Made by a program: the position numbers and the translations under genes. A stretch of DNA of 64,000 bases, taken from NCBI GenBank assembly GCA_947579605.1, contig OX388321.1:10195427-10259426 (forward strand), given 5' to 3'. This document shows, piece by piece, positions 156 through 59,868 of this stretch. The DNA comes from Athripsodes cinereus (lineage: Eukaryota; Arthropoda; Insecta; Trichoptera; Leptoceridae). The notes under the pieces were generated by a model, which had not been told where the DNA came from, ran no database searches, and saw only the letters and a list, made by a program, of their open reading frames with translations. Every line of letters begins with the position of its first letter. The first letter of the stretch is position 1.

Positions 156-335
156 TGAGTTCGTCGGTAGCCTGGAGGTAGAGTCTCGGCCTCTTGAACA
201 AGGGGTCCGCGGTTCGATCCCAGGTGCCGGCAAACTCCCCTTTCACGACACAAGCTTTTAGCTTACTGTGGAAGGTGTATAAAGTTGTATTTGGGTTTAC
301 ATAACAAAACCCAGATATATCTTTTTAAAAAAAAA
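156..335 (+). mobile_element. SINE-A, full-length tRNA-derived SINE
   Basis: The head resembles a tRNA with an A box (TAGCCTGGAGGTAGAG) and a B box (GGTTCGATCCC). A shared body follows (CACGACACAAGCTTTTAGCTT, then GTATTTGGGTTTA), then CCAGATATATCT and a poly(A) tail. AATTAT occurs just before the head and just after the tail and may be the target duplication. Further copies lie at 17515, 37687 (minus) and 57848, with diverged ones at 12474 and 14334. It would be transcribed by Pol III and moved by a LINE reverse transcriptase. Confidence 0.85.
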
Positions 336-930
336 AAAAAAATTATCTTCTGGTTATTCGATTCCTCTGCCCATTCTATAAGGAACAACACGTATGACAA
401 TGATATAGAGATAGAAGGATAAATAAATACATATAGGTAAGTATTTTCTCCCCCAGAGACAAGTATTTCCTTATTATTATTATTATAAGTTTATCTTATA
501 GTCACAAAGTATAACTATTAACACTGTATATAAATGCAAAGCAGGGAGAACAGGATTACTATAATATAAACGTCCTCTGTAGTATTTATATGGGGTATGG
601 TATCTGATAATTATCATTAAGGAAACTAGTTAACACGGCTTCGTACTACAGAGAGTAACCTATTTGTAAATCCATTGAAATATCTTGTAAAAACTTTTGC
701 ATTAAGTTTAACGAATTTCCAAACCTACTTTGTAGGTAGATAAAATATTTTTTAAAGGAATGTTTTCACATTGTCTTAATCTGCATAATTAAAGGACACA
801 ATATACCATATTATATCATACTTTTAATTATGCGTTTTTTATTTCAATACACAGCAAAAGATATACCGTCTGGGTAGTGCAGAAGTCCGGTTAATCAATA
901 TCAAAACGAAACAAAATATTTAGTAATTTA
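336..930. other. AT-rich intergenic stretch
   Basis: No ORF, RNA gene or recognisable repeat was seen; only short TAT/TAA-rich runs. Confidence 0.5.
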
Positions 931-1060
931 AATATGCTAACAAGCTTTCGAAAACTTCCGCTCTCATTGTCAGCTAAATGTATAATAAAGTTTCACTTTA
1001 GATTTACCTGACGATGAGAGTTGAAACGTACGAAAGCCGGCTCACTTCTTTATCTGTATT
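925..1060. repeat. Inverted PLE-like remnant with two hammerhead-like cores
   Basis: On the plus strand, CTGACGA (1008-1014) is followed by T-GAGAG, a loop and CGAAAGC (1031-1037). On the minus strand, CTGACAA (967-973) is followed by TGAGAG and CGAAAGC (944-950). Together they suggest CTGACGA-T-GAGAG/CTCTC-GAAA, the layout of a hammerhead core in which stem II would be GAGAG/CTCTC. Two such cores facing each other match the inverted partial dimers known for Penelope-like elements. Both are mutated, so activity is unlikely. Confidence 0.5.
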
Positions 1061-1332
1061 ATTAATTAAAAAAAAAAAGTAAAATTTAAATATCCAGAAA
1101 TTTAATTATTAGATATATACTTGTATGGAGGCACGAAAGACCATCGGTTTCATGAATATTAGTTTCTCATAAAGGCAAATACATCCCAATTACCCTCGCA
1201 GTAATTAATATGCTCATGTCGTAAATTTTTAGTTGGTTAGCAGCAGGAAGAATCGAATCTTGGATCTTGGATCTTCCGCTTGTAAGTCCGAGATTCTACC
1301 ACTACGCAACTGACCATTTTATGCATACATAC

Positions 1333-1865
1333 TAGGGATTGCAATCCAGCAAAGTGGGATCCCGCAATCCAGCGGGATCCGCGTAATTTTAGAGTTTGCG
1401 GGATCCCGCAAATGCTTGCGGATCCGCATGTGCGAATCCGCAAACTGAAGATTTTCCGAAAGTTGCCAACTAAAGGTGAAACATGTTTGCAAAAATACTT
1501 AAAGAAGAAACAGGAAAAGAATTATGTTAATCCTAGATTGCTGCACTCACTAAAACAGCTTGCTTGATATGTTAGAAAGATTTTAGTCCCAAAGTTTGCA
1601 TTGAGAAGGCTCTCATCGACATAGCATCTGACATAAAATTTACGCACAAAATCAAAAACGTGATTGACAGCTTGCAGCCCTTTAAATTGGTCGTAAAGTA
1701 TTATGCAGAAGATAGTCTACACTAATAACGGCAGTTATAACATTCCGATTTATTTTAGAGAAGCTAGACACAGTATTAAGCGGGATCCCGCGGGATCCAG
1801 CTGGATTGGAGTCAATCCAGCAGAAATCCCGCGGGATTGAAAACGGTTCGGGATTGCAATCCCTA
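1333..1865 (+). mobile_element. Non-autonomous hAT element
   Basis: Terminal inverted repeats TAGGGATTGCAATCC / GGATTGCAATCCCTA bound a 533-bp insert. The flanks are ATACATAC (1325-1332) and ATACGTAC (1866-1873), an 8-bp duplication with one change, the length expected of hAT. Sub-terminal zones are crowded with GGGATCCCGC motifs. The interior keeps a scrap of transposase (1597-1725), so this derives from an autonomous hAT by decay and deletion. Confidence 0.85.
1597..1725 (+). pseudogene. hAT transposase fragment
   Basis: A 42-codon open stretch reads CIEKALIDIASDIKF...KNVIDSLQPFKLVVKYYAEDS and then stops. The 'A/D-LEPFK-x-x-T/K' block preceding an acidic 'RED/AED' step is characteristic of the middle of hAT-family transposases. 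It sits inside the hAT TIRs at 1333-1865. No start codon, DDE residues or dimerisation domain remain, so it cannot encode an active enzyme. The family assignment is from memory of the hAT pattern; a profile search would settle it. Confidence 0.6.
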
Positions 1866-1873
1866 ATACGTAC

Positions 1874-2384
1874 ATACTTACAAACCTTTTCAAATATTTA
1901 CATAAGTATTGGCTATAGTTACTACGTCATGGAGAGAGGACGAACCCCTTCGATAGTTTCCGGACTTCCCACTTTTGTTGATAAGCAACATTGGAATTTA
2001 GGGTAATCCATTTTCTAATTTCCTTGTATATATACCCATAGACATATTATACATTTATAGGAGATATTATATATGGAGGTTTATATTTTTTTTTATTAAA
2101 CTGAAAGGGTTATTGAAACTAGAAGTAAATAATGAAAAACCTAAGAAAATACTTTAAGTTACGGCGTAAGCCTTTTTTTTACATGTTCAAATATAAAACA
2201 GACTAAAAAAATGTATGCACAATACAAATTTACACATATACCTTCGCATCACTGGGATTAGAAAAAAAAAGATTTTTTTAATAATATAAATGAAGTATTT
2301 TTAAATTATACATTTCAAATAAAATATTCAATTTTAGTAATAAAATGTGATGACATATTAAAAATAAAGACATTTTACATCTTA
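1874..2384. other. AT-rich intergenic stretch
   Basis: Only poly-A/T runs and chance short ORFs were seen. Confidence 0.5.
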
Positions 2385-2533
2385 AATTCAGCGATGAAGT
2401 TTGCCACCCATCCTTAATGTCTTGATTCTATGTTGGCGCGGGGAGGACGGCTTACATGTTTATTACATGCAGCTGGTCTGCTGGCTACCCCACTTGTGAG
2501 ATATACCGTGATGGTATAAAAGTAGTAGTAGAA
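2385..2533 (+). repeat. Repeat C copy ending in (GTA)n
   Basis: It carries the family landmarks in order: ATTCAGCGATGA, TTTGCCACCCATCC, GGCGCGGGGAGGAC, CAGCTGGTCTGCTGGCTACC, CCACTTGTGAGATATACCGTGATGGTAT, then GTAGTAGTAG. At least 15 copies or pieces occur in this window. Non-coding; probably a SINE-like or internally deleted LINE derivative (see findings). Confidence 0.8.
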
Positions 2534-3867
2534 CATATTAAAAATTCATTAAAAATATGAATAACTAAATATGAAAATAATTTAAATGATTTAAATAATA
2601 AACTAGAATTTATTAAAATTTAACAGTTAAAAGTGAGCACTCAAAAACAAGATAAGAAAAGTAGATAAAAATAATAATAATATGGGTCAATATAATAACA
2701 AATCATTACAATGGCATACATGAAAAGTCGGATCGCAAACCTCTATTCCCCGAAGTCAATTATGTAATATTATATGAATTAGGTATATATTGAATTTATG
2801 AAGAATCGACTACTCATAACCCAATCTCAAAGACGCTATTTTGTGAATCCATTGCCTGAAAGTCTCAGCAAACAGACACGTCTCGAGTCTTATGCACATT
2901 TCAGAAGACCCCAGTATTTGTATAATTATGTATACCTCTCATCATTATGTCAAATAATGGTGTATATAGGTATGTATATGCTCGCTAGTATTTGAGACAT
3001 GTTTTTTGTTTTGGAGAGCTGTCGACATTTGTCACTTAGCAGACATATTGTGGAGTGGAGCGGCTTTTGTTTTGAAACAAAAGAAAAGTAAGTATAACTA
3101 ATATAATAGAATGAAACAAAATATCCCAAGGTCATAGAGATATAAAATTTTCTATGGAATGGGCACATGGATTATAAGACTAAAATCACATTACTACTTG
3201 AGTGTAATTGTATGTTTGTTTGTTTTAATATGCTTTATAGTTATTGAATACTTTATTGCAAAGCAAAGGGATAATGAAACATGAAATTCAAACTAGTTTT
3301 GGCGACGAAAAGAAATAATAGGTTTGCGAATGTTTTTAATTATAAAAATTGATATTAAATATTAGGAGGTACCTAGGAGCAATGGGCCCCCGACCCAACT
3401 AGGACAAGGGGAAGAAAATGTATGCATGTATGATATTAAATAAACTCAAGACGTTTTCGATATTTTTTGATGCATTACGTCAAATATTTGTTTTATATAA
3501 CTGAAATTGATGTGATATTACTATTTTTGTTGGTCTAGATTTTCAACATCAATTTTTTGAAATAGAAAAAAAAGACATATTTCTTTTATTCAAACTAAAA
3601 AAAAAATATTCCAGATTTTCAGGTAGATATAATTAAGGCCCTTCCGTTATAATGGTTTGACATAAGGGTAACTACTCACTCGATTGCGGGTACATTGCCA
3701 TGAAATAAACAAGACAAGGCTTACTGCCTATTTTTGTAATTTTAATCGTGTTAATTTATCTTTGATTTAAATCAATTAATTTATAGATAATCAACATTTG
3801 AAGTAGGTACCTATTTCATTATATCATTTTCACACATATTTCGAAGTAGGTTTATTTTGTAGGCCGA
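2534..3867. other. AT-rich intergenic stretch
   Basis: Nothing supportable was seen. The 65- and 72-codon ORFs here overlap on opposite strands and resemble no family. Confidence 0.5.
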
Positions 3868-14496: not shown

Positions 14497-14735
14497 TACT
14501 ACTACTACTATACCATCACGGCATATACCACAAGTGGGGTAACCAGCAGACCAGCTGCATGTAAGAAACATGCAAGCTGTCCTCTTCGTGCCAGTATAAA
14601 ATTAAGACATTCAGGATGGGTGGCAAACCTCATCGCTGAATTTAAGATGTACAATGTCTTAATTTTTTCGAACACCTGCCTTTTACAGGACACTCGAAAA
14701 CTAAAAGAAAAGTATATTTTTTAATTATGAATTTT
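14497..14735 (-). repeat. Repeat C copy, nearly full length
   Basis: Starts TACTACTACTATACCATCAC, passes CCACAAGTGGGGTAACCAGC, CATGCAAGCTGTCCTCTTCG, TCAGGATGGGTGGCAAACCT, CATCGCTGAATTTAAGATGT and ends near TTTTACAGGACACTCGAAAA. This copy best shows the family consensus. Confidence 0.85.
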
Positions 14736-18525: not shown

Positions 18526-20535
18526 GAAAGTGTAAACAGAATATGGGAGAAAATCAAAGAGAAAATTACTACAGCGGCAGATGAGGTAATAGAGAAAAGA
18601 AAGCCGCAAGCTAGGAAAGAATGGATTACGGTCGATATATTAGAAATGATTGAAGAAAGAAGGAGGCTAAAGAACTCGAGAACAGAAGAAGGAAAAAAGG
18701 AATATAAAATCTTGAGAAACAAAATCAACAGGGAGTCCAAATTGAGAAAGGAATGCTATCTGCAAGAAAAATGCAGGAATATCAACAGAAATATAAAACA
18801 AAGGAAATTTGAAACTGCATATTCTGAAGTCAAGAATTTTTACAATGATAAGACACAACCACGATGTGCTATCCAAGATCAAAACGGCAAACTACTGTTT
18901 GAGGATGAATTGATTGTTAAAAGGTGGAAAGAATACCTAGAACAACTTTACAAAGGAAAGAACATACTTGAGGAAAGTAAAGCACTGGAAACAGAATATG
19001 ACAAAGAAAATAATGGAGATGACATCTTAAGAAGTGAATTTGATAATGCCTTATCAAAATTGAAAGACGGCAAAGCACCAGGTATTGACCTAATTCCATC
19101 AGAGTTGCTTAAATGCGCAGGAAGCGGCATGCTTGACACTTTGTATAAGCTTGTCTGCAAAATATATAACACAGGAGAGATACCTGAGGACTTCGCCAAA
19201 TGTCTGATACGAGCGCTACCTAAGAAAACAGGCACGACAAAGTGCGAACAACATAGAACATTAAGCATGATATCACACGCTTCTAAGATACTCACCAACA
19301 TTATAATGAAAAGGGCGGAAAGTAAAATCAACGAAACACTTTCAGAAGATCAATTTGGATTCCGCAAAGAGACAGGTACAAGAGATGCAATTCTGAGTCT
19401 AAGACTTGTTCTTGAAAAGAGAATAACAGTAAATAGAAACACGTATGTAGCATTCATCGACCTAGAAAAAGCATTCGATAAAGTAGAATGGGAACAACTT
19501 TTTAAGACTATAAACCAGATAGGAATGAGCTATAAGGACAGAAGAGCAATCTGGAGCCTATACAAGAATGAAATGGCTGTAATTAAAAGCGGAGAGAGCT
19601 GCGCAGAAGCGAGGGTAGAACAAGGTGTGAGACAGGGATGCTCAATGTCGCCAGCACTCTTTAACTGCTATATACAGCGAGCTATTGATGAACTCAGAGA
19701 AGAAATGAAGAACTGGACAGGAGTAAAAATAAATGGGAAAAAAGTCGACATGATTAGATATGCAGACGACATAGCACTGCTCGCAGACTCCGAGATGGAG
19801 CTGAACGAAGCCTTAGGGAAAATGGAAAGTATACTGTTGTCAAAGTACAACATGAAAATAAATAAAGATAAAACAAAATGTATGGTCGTTGGAAGGGAGG
19901 AAGCGACTGCGAACATTGCCATAAATGGAGTGAGCATCAAACAAGTAAGAGAATTCGTGTACTTGGGCAGCAGAATAAACCAGGACGGACGCTCCAAATC
20001 AGAAATTGTGAGCAGAATAAACCAGGCACGAATTGCCTTTAACAAAAAATCCAAAATATTAGAATCCCCTAATATTGATCTAAGCGTGAGGAAGAATCTC
20101 ACTAAAGCCTTTGTGTGGAGCATTTTGTTATATGGGTGCGAGACGTGGACCATCAGCAAGAGGGAAAGCGGACGGTTAGCGGCATTTGAAATGTGGTGCT
20201 ATAGACGCATGCTGAAGATTCATTGGTCGGAACACGTCGAAAACGAAGAAGTGTTAACCAGGGTTGGCGAAAAAAGGCAACTCCTCAAAAGAATCTGCCA
20301 ACAACGAGCTAATTGGATTGGCCACAACATCAGGCACCCAGGACTGCTCATCGCAATCGCAGAGGGCAGGACCGAAGGCACAAATAGCAGAGGTCGACCG
20401 AGAGACGCCTATATGGACCAACTGAAGAGGGACATGAGCTGTGGCTCATATATGGAGTTGAAGAGACTAGCTGAGAATAGGGAGGAGTGGAGAAATAAGT
20501 CAAAACTCGTTGCAGACCAATCCAATGGATTGTAA
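18526..20535 (+). CDS. RTE-type LINE reverse transcriptase, 5'-truncated
   Basis: This uninterrupted frame (629 codons from the ATG at 18646, open back to 18526) encodes a non-LTR reverse transcriptase. Motifs from that ATG: DGKAPGIDLIPSELL (141-155), EDQFGFRKETGTRDAI (234-249), FIDLEKAFD with D272, GVRQGCSMSPALFN (327-340) and YADD with D374/D375. The C-terminal half has YLGSRINQDG, LLYGCETWT, AFEMWCYRRMLKI and GRPRDAYMDQLKRD, the usual ending of arthropod RTE/BovB-like elements. The APE endonuclease is missing, so the copy is 5'-truncated and cannot retrotranspose alone, yet its RT core has no stop. An internal piece of the same element lies at 62991-63095. Confidence 0.85.
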   Translation, partial: ESVNRIWEKIKEKITTAADEVIEKRKPQARKEWITVDILEMIEERRRLKNSRTEEGKKEYKILRNKINRESKLRKECYLQEKCRNINRNIKQRKFETAYSEVKNFYNDKTQPRCAIQDQNGKLLFEDELIVKRWKEYLEQLYKGKNILEESKALETEYDKENNGDDILRSEFDNALSKLKDGKAPGIDLIPSELLKCAGSGMLDTLYKLVCKIYNTGEIPEDFAKCLIRALPKKTGTTKCEQHRTLSMISHASKILTNIIMKRAESKINETLSEDQFGFRKETGTRDAILSLRLVLEKRITVNRNTYVAFIDLEKAFDKVEWEQLFKTINQIGMSYKDRRAIWSLYKNEMAVIKSGESCAEARVEQGVRQGCSMSPALFNCYIQRAIDELREEMKNWTGVKINGKKVDMIRYADDIALLADSEMELNEALGKMESILLSKYNMKINKDKTKCMVVGREEATANIAINGVSIKQVREFVYLGSRINQDGRSKSEIVSRINQARIAFNKKSKILESPNIDLSVRKNLTKAFVWSILLYGCETWTISKRESGRLAAFEMWCYRRMLKIHWSEHVENEEVLTRVGEKRQLLKRICQQRANWIGHNIRHPGLLIAIAEGRTEGTNSRGRPRDAYMDQLKRDMSCGSYMELKRLAENREEWRNKSKLVADQSNGL

Positions 20536-24540: not shown

Positions 24541-24678
24541 AAAATCAGACATTCGTTACATCACTAATATAAACGTAAGTATAATTATTATATTTAGTAA
24601 TTCACTTGTCTTCAATTTGTCATTCAAAGTATTTAATCCATGAAGGTATTGTTTTCTAAAAAAATATTTAACATCTAA

Positions 24679-24990
24679 CACTATACTATACTATACTATA
24701 CCCTCACGCCGTGTCCCAAGTGGGGTAGGCTGAGAGAACGGAACGCCAAACAGATCTATAAGACATCACACCGTTCATTCATCGTAAAATCATTCCTTTC
24801 GTTCGCACTAAGCTTTTCATTCACAGTTTTTACATTCGTCAGTCTTTCTCACCATCCCTCCTCTCACATTCAAAACTCCCACCCTGCATTCCGCTCTCCT
24901 CTTTGTGCCCTTCACCCACTTTGACGCGGCATGATGGGTGGCAAGCCTCATCGCTGCCATATGCGTCAAAGCGTACTACCTATGGTCTTA
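24679..24990 (-). mobile_element. Internally deleted RTE-type LINE derivative
   Basis: On the minus strand it starts GGCAGCGATGAGGCTTGCCA CCCATC, matching the front of repeat C. It then has an ORF start reading RVGVLNVRGGMVRKTDEC, resembling the first residues of a LINE APE endonuclease. It jumps to AGATCTGTTTGGCGTTCCGT and CTACCCCACTTGGGACACGG, the LINE 3' end, with a (TATAG)n tail. Everything between is absent. It links repeat C to the RTE-type LINE family. Confidence 0.65.
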
Positions 24991-25010
24991 AATATTTGAT
25001 TTAGCGATAA

Positions 25011-25100
25011 GAAACGCCACCTATTCTGAATGTGTTGGTTTTTTCTTAGCACGGAAAAGGAAACCTCAATGTTTACACGAAGTTAGTATAGGTATTGACT
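25011..25100 (+). repeat. Repeat C fragment
   Basis: TTTAGCGATAAGAAACGCCA, CTATTCTGAATGTGTTGG and AGCACGGAAAAGG follow family order but the 3' end is lost. Confidence 0.5.
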
Positions 25101-25298
25101 AATGGTGTAGAAAGAGATAACTATTTAATATCGGCTCATTAAAGACTTAATATTTCAAATGCTTTGATATCGTTGTCAGTATTGTGTGAAAAAGAGAGAA
25201 TTGAAAATGTTGCGAGAAATATTTTTAAATGATCAAAAACGCTTGTTATTAATAATCGTAAGCTTAGCATTCAATGAACGAGATTAGAGAACGCACAA

Positions 25299-28577: not shown

Positions 28578-31500
28578 AATGAAAATATTTATTATGTAAT
28601 TTGAAACAAGTGTTTCTTTCTACTATAGATTATTGATTCCGAGAGAGACGTCTTTCGACTTATCAGGTCATTATTACATTATTGATTGGTAATAATAATA
28701 ATAATAAAGACAATTTATATTTGGCGCCGTTTAATGATCCGTGACCATCTCAAGGGCGCCATGACTTTTCTTGAAAAGCAGTGTTTTCAGCTTACTCCTG
28801 AACGTTGCAGTGGGCTGGTTCTTTCTTAAATCCGCTGGTAATCGGTTCCAGGCAGTTGGCCCCGCAACGCTAAAGCTCCTCTCTGCGAATTTGGAAGTGT
28901 TTGCCCTGTTGGGCTCCACAAGCTTGTTTACAGCGGTGGAAGCTGATCGCAGTGGTCGCCTCAGAGTTTCGTCGAGGGGACATAGCTCAGCGAGGCATAG
29001 AGGTGCTGTGCCGTTCAAGGCTTTGTGGACCGTGAGGCACAGCTTGAACTCTACTCTCTCTGGGACTCTAAGCCAGTGTAGCTCCTTAAGCAGTGGTGTG
29101 ATGTGGCAGCGCTTGTTCTCTCTATAGATGGTCCTGGCAGCAGCATTAAAGGCCATTTGGAGACGATTCAGAAGGATCTGGGGCAGTCCTGTACATATGA
29201 TGTTACAATAGTCTAGACGGGAGACGACGAAGGCGGCGACTAGACTCTTAACCGCGTCTACAGATAAGTGTCTTGATACTAGGTACAGTTGGCGAATATG
29301 AAAGAAAGCTGTGCTCACTGTCTTTGACACTTGAGCCTCCATAGAGAGTGCTCCATCCAGTAGGACGCCGAGAACAGATATGGTGCGCGATGGTGTTATA
29401 TCAGTGCCGGAGACAGAGATCGGTTTGGTGTCTAAGAGATGTTGCCGTCCAGGAGAGGCGACCCACATAAATTCTGTCTTAGTTGGATTCAATTTAAGAC
29501 GTCTCTGGGCCATTAAGTTCGAGAGTTTTGCCACACACTGGACAGTGGTAGCTACCAAGTTGTCTCTTTGATCCGGGCTACAGAAGCCTACGAGGACACG
29601 ATCGTCAGCGTATGCATAGTTTCGCAGGCCACACTCTTCCAGCAGGCGATCAATGCATCCTATGTATAATATGAAAAGTACTGGACCCAGAACCGATCCT
29701 TGTGGAACTCCTTGAGTTACGATATCTTCATCAGTTGAGCCAGATTCGACCCTTACAGACCACCTTCTATTGGTCAGGTAGGAGCGTAGCCATTCTAAGA
29801 CGGTGCCGTTAAGATTGTATTCGATCTCCAGACATTGAAGGAGCATTTCATGTTCTACGGTGTCGAAGGCGGCGCTCATGTCAAGGACCGTTACCAGACC
29901 GATGTTTCCTGATGCAACGCCCGCAATCAAGTCAGATGTCAGTCTTGTGAGGGCGGATTCGGTGGAGTGGTGTTTTCTGTATGCGAATTGGTGCTTTTGA
30001 TACAAATCGTTACTCTCAAGGTAGGCTGTAAGCTGGGACGCTATGACTCGCTCAAGCACCTTGGATAGAAATGGAAGATTAGAGATTGGTCGGTAGTTGG
30101 TTGCGTCGTCGGCATCAAGTGTTCTTTTTTTGAGTAAAGGAATGACATGCGACACTTTCCAAAGTGACGGCACAGTTCCGCGCGTCAAAGAAAGATTGAA
30201 TATACGTAAAATTAGTGGCAAGAGGAGGTCAAGATTTTTCTTTAACAATTGTGTGGGTACAGGATCAAGCTGACATTGCTTGTTGGGAGAATTTCCTATG
30301 GCTTTTCTGAGCTCTGTTTCAGATGCAGGTGTGAAAGTACTTAGATTATTGGAGCACGTTGTTGGAAGTGTGACCACGGTGTTGTGCTTTGGAAGGGATG
30401 CAGAAATCTCGTCGAGCTTCGTCTGGAATGCAGTCTTAAACTGATCAGCTCTCAAGTTTGTAGGCGTCGTAGATTTTTCCGTCTCCATGATTCCTTGTAG
30501 GTCTTGCCAAAGCTTCCTTGGATTATCTTTGTTGATGTTTATTCGCTCTCTCCAGAACCTAGACTTCACTTCCTCGATGAGTTTTCGGTATGTCCTTTGG
30601 GCGGAGGTCCAGGTGCTCCTAGACTCAGGTGTTCTTTGACGCCTATAGACTCTTTCAAGCTTGCGGACTTTGGCCTTTTCAGCTCTACACTCAGAGTTGA
30701 ACCACAGCTGTCGAGGGTTATGAACTCTGACAGTTTTTGATGTAAATGGTGCAAGTTCATTCAAGATGTCATGAAGCGTAGAGTTATACTGTTCTACAAG
30801 GTTATCTATGTCGTCGTTGGCATGAATGACATCAGAACATAATACCGAGCTCTGCAAGCGAGTTCGGAATGCATCAGGACAAAGATCTTGCCATTGTCTT
30901 GAGGTGATAGTTGTATAGAGAGGCGGTGGAATAGTGACATGAAACCCTGAGACAAGAAGTCGGTGGTCCGAGAGTCCCACATCAAGGACTGCGGTTGATG
31001 ACGGAACAAAGTCCGTGCGTGTGATCAGTAAGTCGAGGATTCCTCCGGCATCGTGGGTAGAAGATGTAATATTCTGTGTGAGGCCGTGATCCTCCAGTAA
31101 TTTAACAAATTTCTTTGCGTGGACGTCGTTCTGTTTTTCTACGTGGATGTTAAAATCTCCCGTCAGTATGACTGGTATTGCAAAACGAGATGTGAGGTTC
31201 AGGATGGTAGTGACCTCGGTAAAAAAGTCAGACGTGGGTGAGCAAGTACCGGGTCTGTATATGGTGAGAATTATGAATGATGTACCGTCGAGAGTTAGCT
31301 TGCAGCCAACATACTCAAAAGTACTGTATGTTCCAAAGGAGGCTATATTGGATATGCGTAATTCTGGTTTACAGACGATGGCAACTCCGCCATGGTTGGT
31401 TTTCAGTGAGCGATCAGATTCTGGGTTGCGGGGTCTGGCCTTGTCCAATACTGTGTATCCATGATTGCGGAGAGTTTTGATTGCAATCGACTCCGAACTG

Positions 31501-36699: not shown

Positions 36700-37205
36700 A
36701 TTTATCATCTTCAATTTATCGTTGAAGTATGCCACCCAACTTTTATTTGCACAGAGAAAGCGACTTGAATATTTACTACTACTACTATACCACAACGGGA
36801 AATTCCACAAGTGGGGTAGCCAGCAGACCAGCTGCATAATAAATAAATACATAAATCTTTATACAGCTGTACTCTCCGAGCTAATATAAAATTAACGCGT
36901 TCAGGATGGGTGGCAAACCTCATCGCTGAATTTAAGATGTAAAATGTCTTAATTTTTCAAACACCTGTCTTTTATAGGCAATTCAAAAACTTACGAAGAA
37001 GAGTGGGAGACCAATTCTTTACCGGGTGTTACCGCACTTTGGTAAATGAGGAGAAAAGATATCCAAGATGGGTGACATACCTCATCGCTGAATCGAAGGT
37101 GTTAAATATCTTATTTATGATATTTTACACATCTACCTTTTACAGAATGCAAGAAAGTTAACTCAAAAAAGTGTAAAACCTATTCTCTGTTGAAGACTCC
37201 ACAGG
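36700..37205. repeat. Repeat C cluster: one plus, two minus pieces
   Basis: A plus-strand scrap (36705-36770: TTCAATTTATCGTTGAAGTA TGCCACCC) meets a minus copy head to head at TACTACTACTATACCACAAC (36775). That copy runs to about 37060 through CAAGTGGGGTAGCCAGCAGA, GGATGGGTGGCAAACCTCAT and TCTTTACCGGG. A second minus piece (37064-37205) starts AGATGGGTGACATACCTCAT. The cluster suggests insertion of repeat C into repeat C. Confidence 0.7.
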
Positions 37206-38215: not shown

Positions 38216-38384
38216 AGGTACCTGGTTCCTGTCCTGCGTTCCAGGGAGGAGGAGCGATTTTATTTATTTTGAAAAACTTCACATCTACCTACATGACTTT
38301 TTAAAACAAAACCACATATATTGTTTTTCTGTTTATTATACATATAAGTGTCCCGTGGATCACCCAGAAAAAAAATTGCCTCCC

Positions 38385-38595
38385 ACACTTTTCCGTAAGT
38401 TTTCGGGTGTCCTGTAAAAGGCAGGCGTTCGAAAAAGACATTTGTTATTTTAAAATCAGGAATAAGTTTTTCCACTAATCCTGAATGTCTTAATTGTTTC
38501 TTGACACGGAGATGACAGCTTGCGTGTTTATTACATGCTGATGATCTACTAGCTACCTTACCAGTGGCATATGCCGTGATGGTATAGTAGTAGTG
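38385..38595 (+). repeat. Repeat C copy, long
   Basis: Starts CCGTAAGTTTTCGGGTGTCC TGTAAAAGGCAGGCGTTCGA, continues AATCCTGAATGTCTTAATTG, GGAGATGACAGCTTGCGTGT and ends ATGCCGTGATGGTATAGTAG TAG. Confidence 0.8.
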
Positions 38596-39545: not shown

Positions 39546-39584
39546 CTTTTTAAGAGATAAACTTCTTTTTTATCTCTTAAAAAG
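39546..39584. repeat. Perfect 16-bp hairpin
   Basis: CTTTTTAAGAGATAAA (39546-39561) pairs perfectly with 39569-39584 around a 7-base loop, directly before the LINE fragment at 39586. Confidence 0.8.
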
Positions 39585-39585
39585 G

Positions 39586-39835
39586 CTATATTTGGCTGAG
39601 AGGAATGGTGCTCGGAGACGCGGACGTCCGAGGATTAAATGGCAAGATCATTCAAATCAAATCCTACAGGACGGTCACGTGTTGAGCACATTGAACAAGA
39701 GAGCATGCATGAGGAATTGTATGACAGTGACGGAAGCGAAAGATGTATGCAAGGAAAGAAGGAAGTGGCGCTCGATCCTTTCTGCCTACCCCGCAAGGGA
39801 AGCTGCGCGATGGTATGTATGTATAACTTCTTTTT
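39586..39835 (+). pseudogene. RTE-type LINE C-terminal fragment
   Basis: The frame reads LAERNGARRRGRPRIKWQDH, LQDGHVLSTLNKRACMRNCM, TVTEAKDVCKERRKWRSILS and AYPAREAARW. It is the same C-terminus as 50298-50558 (GRPR..W..H, RRACMRNCM, VCK.R..WR..LSAYP). 5'-truncated; the local (GTAT)n tail replaces (TATAG)n. Confidence 0.8.
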
Positions 39836-49454: not shown

Positions 49455-49690
49455 TAATCTATACTATCGTAGTATCTCCCTCACGTGGTGTAGCCAGCGG
49501 ACCAACTACAAGTAAAAAAATATGTAATTCGTCCTCTCCTTGGCAATAAAAAGTTAAGACAATCAGTATGGATGACAGCTGATGTCATCGCTAAATTTAA
49601 GATGTTTAATGTCTCTTTATGAATACTTGCCTTTCACAGGACATAAAAAATTACAAAATAGACCGTTAGACCTATTCTTTGCCGGACTAC
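49455..49690 (-). repeat. Repeat C copy
   Basis: GGTGTAGCCAGCGGACCAAC, TAATTCGTCCTCTCCTTGGC, CATCGCTAAATTTAAGATGT, GCCTTTCACAGGACATAAAA and GACCTATTCTTTGCCGG follow the family order. Confidence 0.75.
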
Positions 49691-49699
49691 ACGAAAAAA

Positions 49700-50585
49700 A
49701 TAATGCTCCAAACAACTGTTTGTTTGTTTGCGAGGGATGGAAGATGCGACAAGGATATCGAAAGAAGAAAAGTGGCCGGTGCTAAGATTAACGGTGCACT
49801 TCGGCCCATTGTTAGCAATGACAATGTGCCGAATATGGCAAAATTGCTAGTGCACAATACGATCCTGGTACTGACACTTATGTATGCAAGCGAAACGTGG
49901 ACATGGTTGAAGAAGGACGAAATTGGAATAAATGCTGTGGAGATGAGATCGCTGAGGAGGATGGCTGGTAAAACGTTGCGTGATAGAGTGAGGAATGATG
50001 ATATTAGAAGAATGAGTGGATGCAAAAGGAGTGTTGTAGATAGAACGCGTGTGAATAAATTGAGATGGTTTGGTCATTTAAATTTAAATTTTTAAATTTA
50101 AATTTTTAAATTTAAATTTTTAAATTTAAATTTTCATTTTTATTTTTTGACTTTAACTGGAGAATGTTTTGTCTGTTTTTATGTTGTTTTTATATTTTTG
50201 TACATGTGTTGAATGATTGTGTGACGTTATAAAGTTTATCTGTATACTTGTAAAGGCCATTGCCGTATATTGTGTTAAAATAAAATAAAATAAAAATGTG
50301 GAACGAATGGAAGAGGAAAGAATGACAAAGAAGATATACTTGGCTGAAAGGAGGGGTGTGAGGAAGCGCAGGCGTCCGAGAACTACATGGCTTGAACATG
50401 TAGATCAAATTCTCAAGGACGGCCGTGTTGTGAGTAAGAGAAATCGACGTGCGTGCATGAGAAATTGTATGACTGTGGAGGAGGCGAAAGAAGTATGTAA
50501 GGACAGATCTAATTGGCGTTACGTTCTCTCTGCCTACCCCACTTGGGATACGGCGTGAGTGAATAGATAGATAGATAGATAGATC
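49700..50585 (+). pseudogene. RTE-type LINE C-terminal half, split by another LINE end
   Basis: Part 1 (to 50080) reads LFARDGRCDKDIERRKVAGA, KINGALRPIVSNDNVPNMAK, LMYASETWTWLKKDEIGINA VEMRSLRRMAGK and NKLRWFGH. Part 2 (from 50298) resumes VERMEEERMTKKIYLAERRG, GRPRTTW-like RRPRTTWLEHVDQILKDGRV, RRACMRNCMTVEEAKEVCKD and LSAYPTWDTA, then a (GATA)n tail to 50585. Joined across the insertion, these are one C-terminal RT domain of the element whose ends recur at 24679, 39586, 53338 and 59670. RT catalytic motifs are upstream and missing (5' truncation). Confidence 0.85.
50080..50297 (+). mobile_element. LINE 3' end inserted into the RTE-type LINE
   Basis: After GGTCAT the coding frame is broken by four ATTTAAATTTTTAA-like units, a T-rich UTR with GTAAAGGCCATTGCCGT and an (AAAAT)n tail; coding resumes at GTGGAACGAATGG. 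The inserted piece has the AGGC-N3-GCCGT end of the local (AAAT)n LINEs. A duplication is not clear. Confidence 0.7.
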
Positions 50586-53337: not shown

Positions 53338-53440
53338 GTGGAAAGGAAGTGTGTAAAGATAGATCTGTTTGGCGTTCCGTTCTCTCTGCCTACCCCACTT
53401 GGGACACGGCGTGAGGGTATAGTATAGTATAGTATATTAT
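53338..53440 (+). repeat. RTE-type LINE 3' terminus with (TATAG)n tail
   Basis: GTGTGTAAAGATAGATCTGT TTGGCGTTCCGTTCTCTCTG, CCTACCCCACTTGGGACACG GCGTGAGGG then TATAG repeats. Encodes VCKDRSVWRSVLSAYPTWDT A, the last 21 residues of the ORF. Confidence 0.85.
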
Positions 53441-59660: not shown

Positions 59661-59868
59661 TACAAAAACTTTACTATACTATACCCTCACCCCGTGTCCC
59701 AAGTGAGGTAGGCAGAGAGAACGGAACGCCAAACAGATCTATCTTTACACACTTCTTTCGCTTCCTCCACATTCATACAGTTTCTCATACACGCACGTCG
59801 GCTCCTCTTACTCAACACGCGATCGTCCTTGAGAATTTGATCCACGTGATCAAGCCAGGTACAAAAAC
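59661..59868 (-). pseudogene. RTE-type LINE C-terminus with exact 9-bp duplication
   Basis: TACAAAAAC is duplicated at 59661-59669 and 59860-59868. On the minus strand the insert reads TWLDHVDQILKDDRVLSKRS, RRACMRNCMNVEEAKEVCKD and RSVWRSVLSAYLTWDTG then stop, with a (TATAG)n-like tail. It is the same C-terminus as 50298-50558. Confidence 0.9.

Follow-up and report, generated by a model that had tools for sequence, protein, structure and literature searches.

The 64,000-nucleotide stretch of DNA analysed here (the window) contains copies of repeat C, an element of about 245 nt with target-site duplications (TSDs), together with remnants of an RTE-type LINE and a short element at 24679-24990 (Table 1). 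The short element consists of three collinear LINE pieces: the ORF start with its hairpin and the last 80 nt of the LINE are retained, with 77 nt of the ORF middle kept between them, so that its two ends are homologous to one LINE and the rest of the middle is absent. The initial annotation had described this element as an internal deletion derivative of the LINE, with a repeat-C-like front, an endonuclease-like ORF start and the LINE tail. Its letters and coordinates were found to be correct, the derivation, the ORF start and the tail were all recovered, and the repeat-C-like front corresponds to a 22-mer common to repeat C and the LINE; the 77-nt middle piece had been missed. The 5' start of the element, TAAGACC at 24990, coincides with the onset of the LINE match. 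With at most one mismatch, CTACCCCACTTG occurs at 9 places in the window versus 0.11 expected from shuffles, and the front 22-mer, with at most three mismatches, occurs at 4 places versus 0 expected. The element is inserted within or next to an old, oppositely oriented copy of repeat C, and both of its flanks (24982-25104 and 24640-24680) resemble the repeat C hairpin region.

Table 1. Features of the window. LINE positions follow the numbering of the genome stretch L013, which served as reference; residues are those of its 1014-aa frame.
Feature	Position	Strand	Remarks
Putative RTE-type short internally deleted element (SIDE)	24679..24990	-	5' end at 24990
Front piece: LINE 5' region and first ORF codons, to LINE position 211	24835..24990	-	97.5% to LINE copy in L013; residues 1-45 at 100%
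Hairpin around motif shared with repeat C (22-mer at 24936-24957)	24919..24971	-	LINE hairpin z -3.09, 0/200 shuffles as good
Middle piece: LINE ORF, LINE positions 984-1060	24759..24835	-	90.9%; residues 304-328 at 88%
3' piece: last 21 LINE codons, stop codon, (TATAG)n tail	24680..24759	-	98.75% to LINE 3066-3145; residues 994-1014 at 85.7%
Old repeat C fragment, short element inserted in or beside it	24993..25073	+	profile match
LINE copy, 5'-truncated	49724..50578	+	82-84% protein identity
LINE tail, 5'-truncated	53343..53436	+	
LINE tail, 5'-truncated	59668..59861	-	
Sister RTE family, tail	39574..39825	+	65% protein identity
Repeat C, young, 5'-truncated	14499..14726	-	98-99% to 39 other scored places
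Repeat C copy	2361..2528	+	
Repeat C copy	36776..37021	-	second front unit at 37056-37188
Repeat C copy, older	38368..38594	+	
Repeat C copy, older	49459..49682	-	

An intact LINE of about 3.1 kb, with a single frame of 1014 codons, is present in the same 716 Mb genome (L013; L-numbers designate fetched genome stretches). Its frame contains a reverse transcriptase domain (RVT_1, E 3.4e-36) and a match to Exo_endo_phos_2 at E 7.7e-5, but at 23 bits versus a cut-off of 27.4. As in RTE elements, a single ORF encodes the endonuclease followed by the reverse transcriptase, and the stop codon is followed by a very short simple-repeat 3' UTR, (TATAG)n. The RTE label is a putative one, based on this architecture, on the naming in the initial annotation and on likeness to lepidopteran RTE elements as described (PMC2887409). 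The last ~70 nt before the stop codon are coding, with the protein ending in …SAYPTWDTA, and the relatives P0001-P0003 end alike (SAYPHGKQA, SAYPSGKKA and SAYPSGKEA); named relatives of the LINE protein come from Parnassius mnemosyne and from another species whose name begins Phthorimaea. Neither the LINE protein nor the motif had a match among viral contigs. Two further reverse-transcriptase-like stretches in the window, at 18526-20496 and 29466-30761, belong to other LINE families (about 20-31% identity).

When the genome was searched with the window element, the best 40 of 1266 candidates were scored, and these represented the window itself and 39 other places that match the front of the element at 93-99%; two further rows of this front search were the tails of two places already counted. 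Twenty stretches were fetched from the front search, of which L009 and L010 are short derivatives and the other 18 carry the front and, farther along, the 984-1060 segment. The LINE tail was inside the fetched stretch in 15 of these 18 LINE copies. TSD candidates of 10-15 nt accompanied 8 of the 18 (the tail was not located in 5), that of L019 being 13 nt of simple sequence, and the 5' ends differ among copies. L014 and L028 have non-LINE filler (about 40 and 170 nt, respectively) between the TSD candidate and the LINE start, possibly as a result of template jumps at the 5' end.

For repeat C, the best 40 of 2687 first-look candidates in the genome were scored and all were 98-100% identical, which indicates recent activity, and the window copies, with identities down to about 67%, show that repeat C has long been active. 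Among 30 loci examined, flanks were distinct in 25; the repeat starts at (G)TGCCGTGGAGCACC or nearby in 22 of the 30 loci by strict match, and in 20 of the 25 distinct ones. Twelve of the 20 distinct full-length loci have a TSD of at least 9 nt, compared with a mean of 0.2 and a maximum of 2 in a shuffled-pairing control. These TSDs, together with a tail homologous to the LINE ORF end (0/300 shuffles as good), bear out both the SINE-like behaviour and the shared 3' end that had been proposed for repeat C. Six copies (L044, L045, L046, L047, L052 and L055) have identical flanks, and hence repeat C there lies inside another amplified repeat or duplication. At 36776-37188, a second, differing front unit lies upstream of repeat C, so that motif and hairpin occur twice in a dimer-like arrangement, and in L038 the first ~10-13 nt of repeat C seem to be repeated in inverted orientation before its start, which would fit a folded-back cDNA end.

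Repeat C does not have the hallmarks of a SINE transcribed by pol III, namely A and B boxes and a head derived from tRNA, 7SL or 5S RNA. The best A and B box matches were equalled by 279 and 109 of 500 shuffles, respectively, so that neither stood above shuffles, and TTTT occurs at +51. A tRNA search of the window found none, and an Rfam search of the window yielded no match at the gathering score; sub-cut-off Rfam matches of the window element, repeat C, L059 and L031, none of them near the cut-off, were regarded as chance. No ribozyme family was among the Rfam matches, and inspection of the repeat C head by eye found no case for an HDV-like ribozyme.

The match between the LINE and repeat C is not confined to the tail, because a 27-nt motif at the LINE ORF start also matches the repeat C front, at 25 of 27 positions (0/300 shuffles as good). 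The expectation that the LINE 5' UTR would match the repeat C front was therefore answered in part: the ORF start does match, but the whole 5' UTR has no clear match to repeat C, its score being equalled by 38/300 shuffles. A narrower comparison of the nearest 90 nt with 120 nt (GTAAGTTTT..GGTGT) was equalled by 10/300 shuffles, and the stretch after the motif (GGCAC..AGAGGA) by 33/300, which is not significant alone. Consistently, a profile of 8 repeat C copies found only the 27 nt of the front, plus the tail, on the LINE pieces. An earlier repeat C profile, applied to 157 kb, gave motif-to-tail matches in L010 (E 3.5e-4) and L009 (E 7.4e-4); of its 32 matches these were the weakest. The unclear match upstream of the motif argues against a simple deletion from this LINE. 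The repeat C tail scores 61 against a decayed RTE copy in L007, 53 against L016 and 51 against the window copy at 50505, and the L007 tail is thus nearer to it than are the tails of the window LINE type.

The initial annotation had placed the link between the two elements in a shared 3' hairpin, which folding did not support: neither tail surpasses its shuffles in folding (z -0.66 and 0.08), and when 8 tails are aligned, a 3-pair stem without any compensated pair results. It is the shared front motif that lies within a hairpin, both in repeat C (z -5.4) and in the LINE (z -3.1), each better than all 200 shuffles; the extra front unit at 37056-37110 reaches a z of only -1.0. The stem closing the CAGCGATGAGG.TTGCCACCCATC hairpin differs in sequence between the LINE and repeat C and pairs fully in both. 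In one register, compensation between the two stems is 9/9 and 4/4, but in the register that aligns the shared GAC/GUC and CAG letters (by eye) few compensated pairs are left, and because the count varies with register, this covariation is only suggestive. Within repeat C copies, the variation is mostly decay with few compensated pairs. Since a MAFFT alignment shifted the LINE stem, pair counts were not drawn from it. Repeat C has this small RNA hairpin and the tail in common with the window element, and therefore probably arose in the same way. A related RTE is the probable source of repeat C, which would then be an older SIDE. Its proposed birth by internal deletion remains likely as far as motif and tail are LINE-like, but its head has no clear LINE 5' UTR counterpart; mobilisation by this very LINE, as had also been proposed, would be a further inference.

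The most serious competitor to a deletion origin of repeat C is that it is a composite SINE, made of a separately derived head and an RTE tail, with the motif either a conserved SINE domain or a sequence that the LINE took from repeat C via template jumping. We regard this as a minority possibility. The first ~110 nt of repeat C without a clear LINE 5' UTR match would fit it, as would the motif region of the LINE ORF, where residues look different (by eye) in the N-termini of P0002 and P0007, and the extra sequence that L014 and L028 apparently carry between TSD and start suggests that 5' additions may happen. However, the lack of A and B boxes above shuffles and the TTTT at +51 are contrary to a pol III head, and the window has no tRNA and no Rfam match near the cut-off. 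Motif and tail of repeat C, moreover, follow one another as they do in the LINE-derived short elements, and matches of the repeat C profile to L009 and L010 extended from motif to tail, albeit as its two weakest.

Short derivatives of the LINE were also found elsewhere in the genome. A pattern search for the front joined to the tail, with at most 30 nt between them and exact letters, by which only junctions in that place can be found, gave 8 places, compared with 0 for a reversed control. These fall into five junction types: A (L059), B (L060, L063 and L066), C (L061), D (L062 and L064) and E (L065). L061 and L062 are the L010 and L009 places, respectively, and the 8 places represent 7 insertions because L060 and L063 have common flanks. 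In a search with the tail, the best 40 of 367 candidates were scored; 39 besides that of the window were fetched, of which 2 were derivatives (L080 and L086) and the remaining 37 continue into the ORF as far as visible or are plainly 5'-truncated. Since about 220 nt before each tail were covered, deletions farther up would escape this sample. Together with the window element, L080 and L086, the junction types amount to eight.

Two of these types have spread as short forms to more than one site. Type B occurs at two unrelated sites, L060 and L066 (TSDs judged by eye), and type D at two sites, L062 and L064, whose copies have two marker substitutions in common (by eye), which suggests that copying involved the short form itself. 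Because two junction types are present at more than one insertion site, the window element is assigned to a mobile kind: with good though not full confidence, we interpret 24679-24990 as a SIDE derived from an RTE-clade LINE that this genome also contains, and repeat C as most likely an older element of the same build. The front sequences of the short forms are not separable from one LINE subgroup. L059, L061 and L062 have a common 5' head, which, by eye, is not visible in any of the 18 LINE stretches within the 200 nt preceding the front. In L060 and L064, which lie at unrelated sites, both short derivatives are 5'-truncated at the motif (GCAGCGATG and CAGCGATG, respectively).

Seven of the eight junction types have their outer ends at LINE 209-225 and 3061-3074, the window type with its middle piece between them; L080 joins LINE 217 to 3061. 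L086 joins about 255 to 2898, so that in the freer tail sample one of the two derivatives lies outside this hot spot. Microhomology at the junctions is 3 nt in type B, 2 nt in L080 and none in type C, types D and E have 1-2 untemplated bases, and the computed junction call of L059 was disturbed by a 1-nt gap. The eight types might represent one lineage with later small changes. Splicing was rejected as the origin of the deletions because no donor side starts with GT (by eye). Long-range RNA pairing between the breakpoints was likewise rejected, with an energy of -46.3 that lies within 200 random pairs (mean -41.2, sd 10.0); LINE 100-215 paired with 3060-3150 at -69.4 versus a background minimum of -66.3, the latter from stretches of other lengths.

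RNA structure may have set the recurring breakpoints, if reverse transcriptase stopped in a hairpin near 3048-3078 and landed in a hairpin at 201-257. In the minimum-energy fold of the whole LINE RNA, one hairpin does hold 7 of 8 donors in its 5' arm and a second hairpin holds 7 of 8 acceptors, but both are only weakly favoured over shuffles (z -1.9 and -1.1), the reading is post hoc, and for some types microhomology of 3 nt (type B) or 2 nt (L080) would suffice; we consider this explanation unlikely. Least probable is a one-off genomic deletion in a single LINE insertion without mobility of its own, which is compatible with the window junction with its 77-nt middle piece having only one occurrence and with no clean TSD being callable for the window element, but not readily with 7 other insertions of near-identical end points in the pattern search or with the recurrence of two junction types at unrelated sites.

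Taking 24679-24990 as a SIDE, we infer a mobilising protein, a template jump and a role for the 5' hairpin in the following mechanism. The SIDE would retain the RNA parts needed in cis but not the enzyme; the protein of an intact LINE would bind the 3' end of its transcript and reverse-transcribe the RNA from a genomic nick (target-primed reverse transcription), and this process would leave the (TATAG)n tail, TSDs and frequent 5' truncation. At its birth, the terminal ~70-85 nt of the LINE would be joined, by reverse transcriptase or by DNA repair, to sequence past the 5' hairpin, at short repeats in some cases. Repeat C would be an older and far more successful product, comprising a head, the 5' hairpin motif, a short spacer and an RTE tail, made from a related LINE. 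A bolder extension, which we offer tentatively, is that the RTE has a second cis-acting RNA in the ORF-start hairpin, and that only derivatives keeping both this hairpin and the coding 3' end would be amplified in trans.

RIME, SIDER and L1Tc/ingi belong to a clade other than RTE. In excerpted descriptions, these autonomous and short elements have a common 5' RNA hallmark, Pr77, as is the case here, and Pr77 is described as a promoter and ribozyme (PMC4035085, PMC4748587, PMC8190864). SIDEs of non-LTR elements are described as rare, and a close counterpart is Persaeus, which in Lepidoptera derives as a SIDE from Zenon, a CR1 element (PMC6740152). As here, Persaeus is described as keeping the 5' UTR with the ORF start and the ORF end with the 3' UTR, as having no pol III promoter, as having several origins (which may apply here too), and as having a variable breakpoint region edged by short direct repeats, at which breakpoints recur (PMC6740152). 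It differs in its CR1 clade and poly(A) tail, whereas the present elements derive from an RTE-type LINE, have a microsatellite tail and retain a 3' end that is almost wholly coding. SIDEs are also known from R2, where, according to the excerpt, a structured 5' RNA is likewise joined to the LINE 3' end and moved by the machinery of the parent (PMC3414825); there, the 5' RNA is a ribozyme that cleaves itself and rDNA is the specific insertion target, whereas the Rfam matches obtained here included no ribozyme family and insertion sites vary.

Lepidopteran RTE elements such as HmRTE-e01 and BmRTE-d01 to d25 (PMC2887409) and RTE-5_PGo of pink bollworm (PMC6522560) are described in part in terms that fit the parent LINE, with one ORF of about 990-1014 aa, 5' truncated copies, TSDs, and a stop codon directly followed by a short simple-repeat 3' UTR (PMC2887409, PMC6522560). 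For RTE-5_PGo, one RTE copy was reported from which about 1,000 bp had been deleted internally (PMC6522560). These descriptions, as excerpted, concern copies that are truncated but complete at the 3' end, or a single copy with a deletion, in contrast to the family of short front-to-tail derivatives found here. The lepidopteran Metulj SINE of Heliconius (~267 nt) resembles repeat C in its abundance and suspected RTE partner, but is set apart by its description, in the excerpts, with pol III boxes and a tRNA-like head (PMC4016481, PMC6685494), neither of which was detected in repeat C. Among the matches listed, the open-licence PubMed Central literature contained no SIDE from the RTE clade.

These elements would add the RTE clade to the sources of SIDEs, with one genome that contains an intact LINE, its short derivatives and perhaps an old derivative of great success, and hence the birth of a SINE-like element may be traceable there. 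The RNA hairpin at the RTE ORF start is a candidate, testable mobilisation signal; if it is indeed a second cis-acting hairpin, RTE elements would be two-ended like R2, and repeat C would be their minimal natural substrate.
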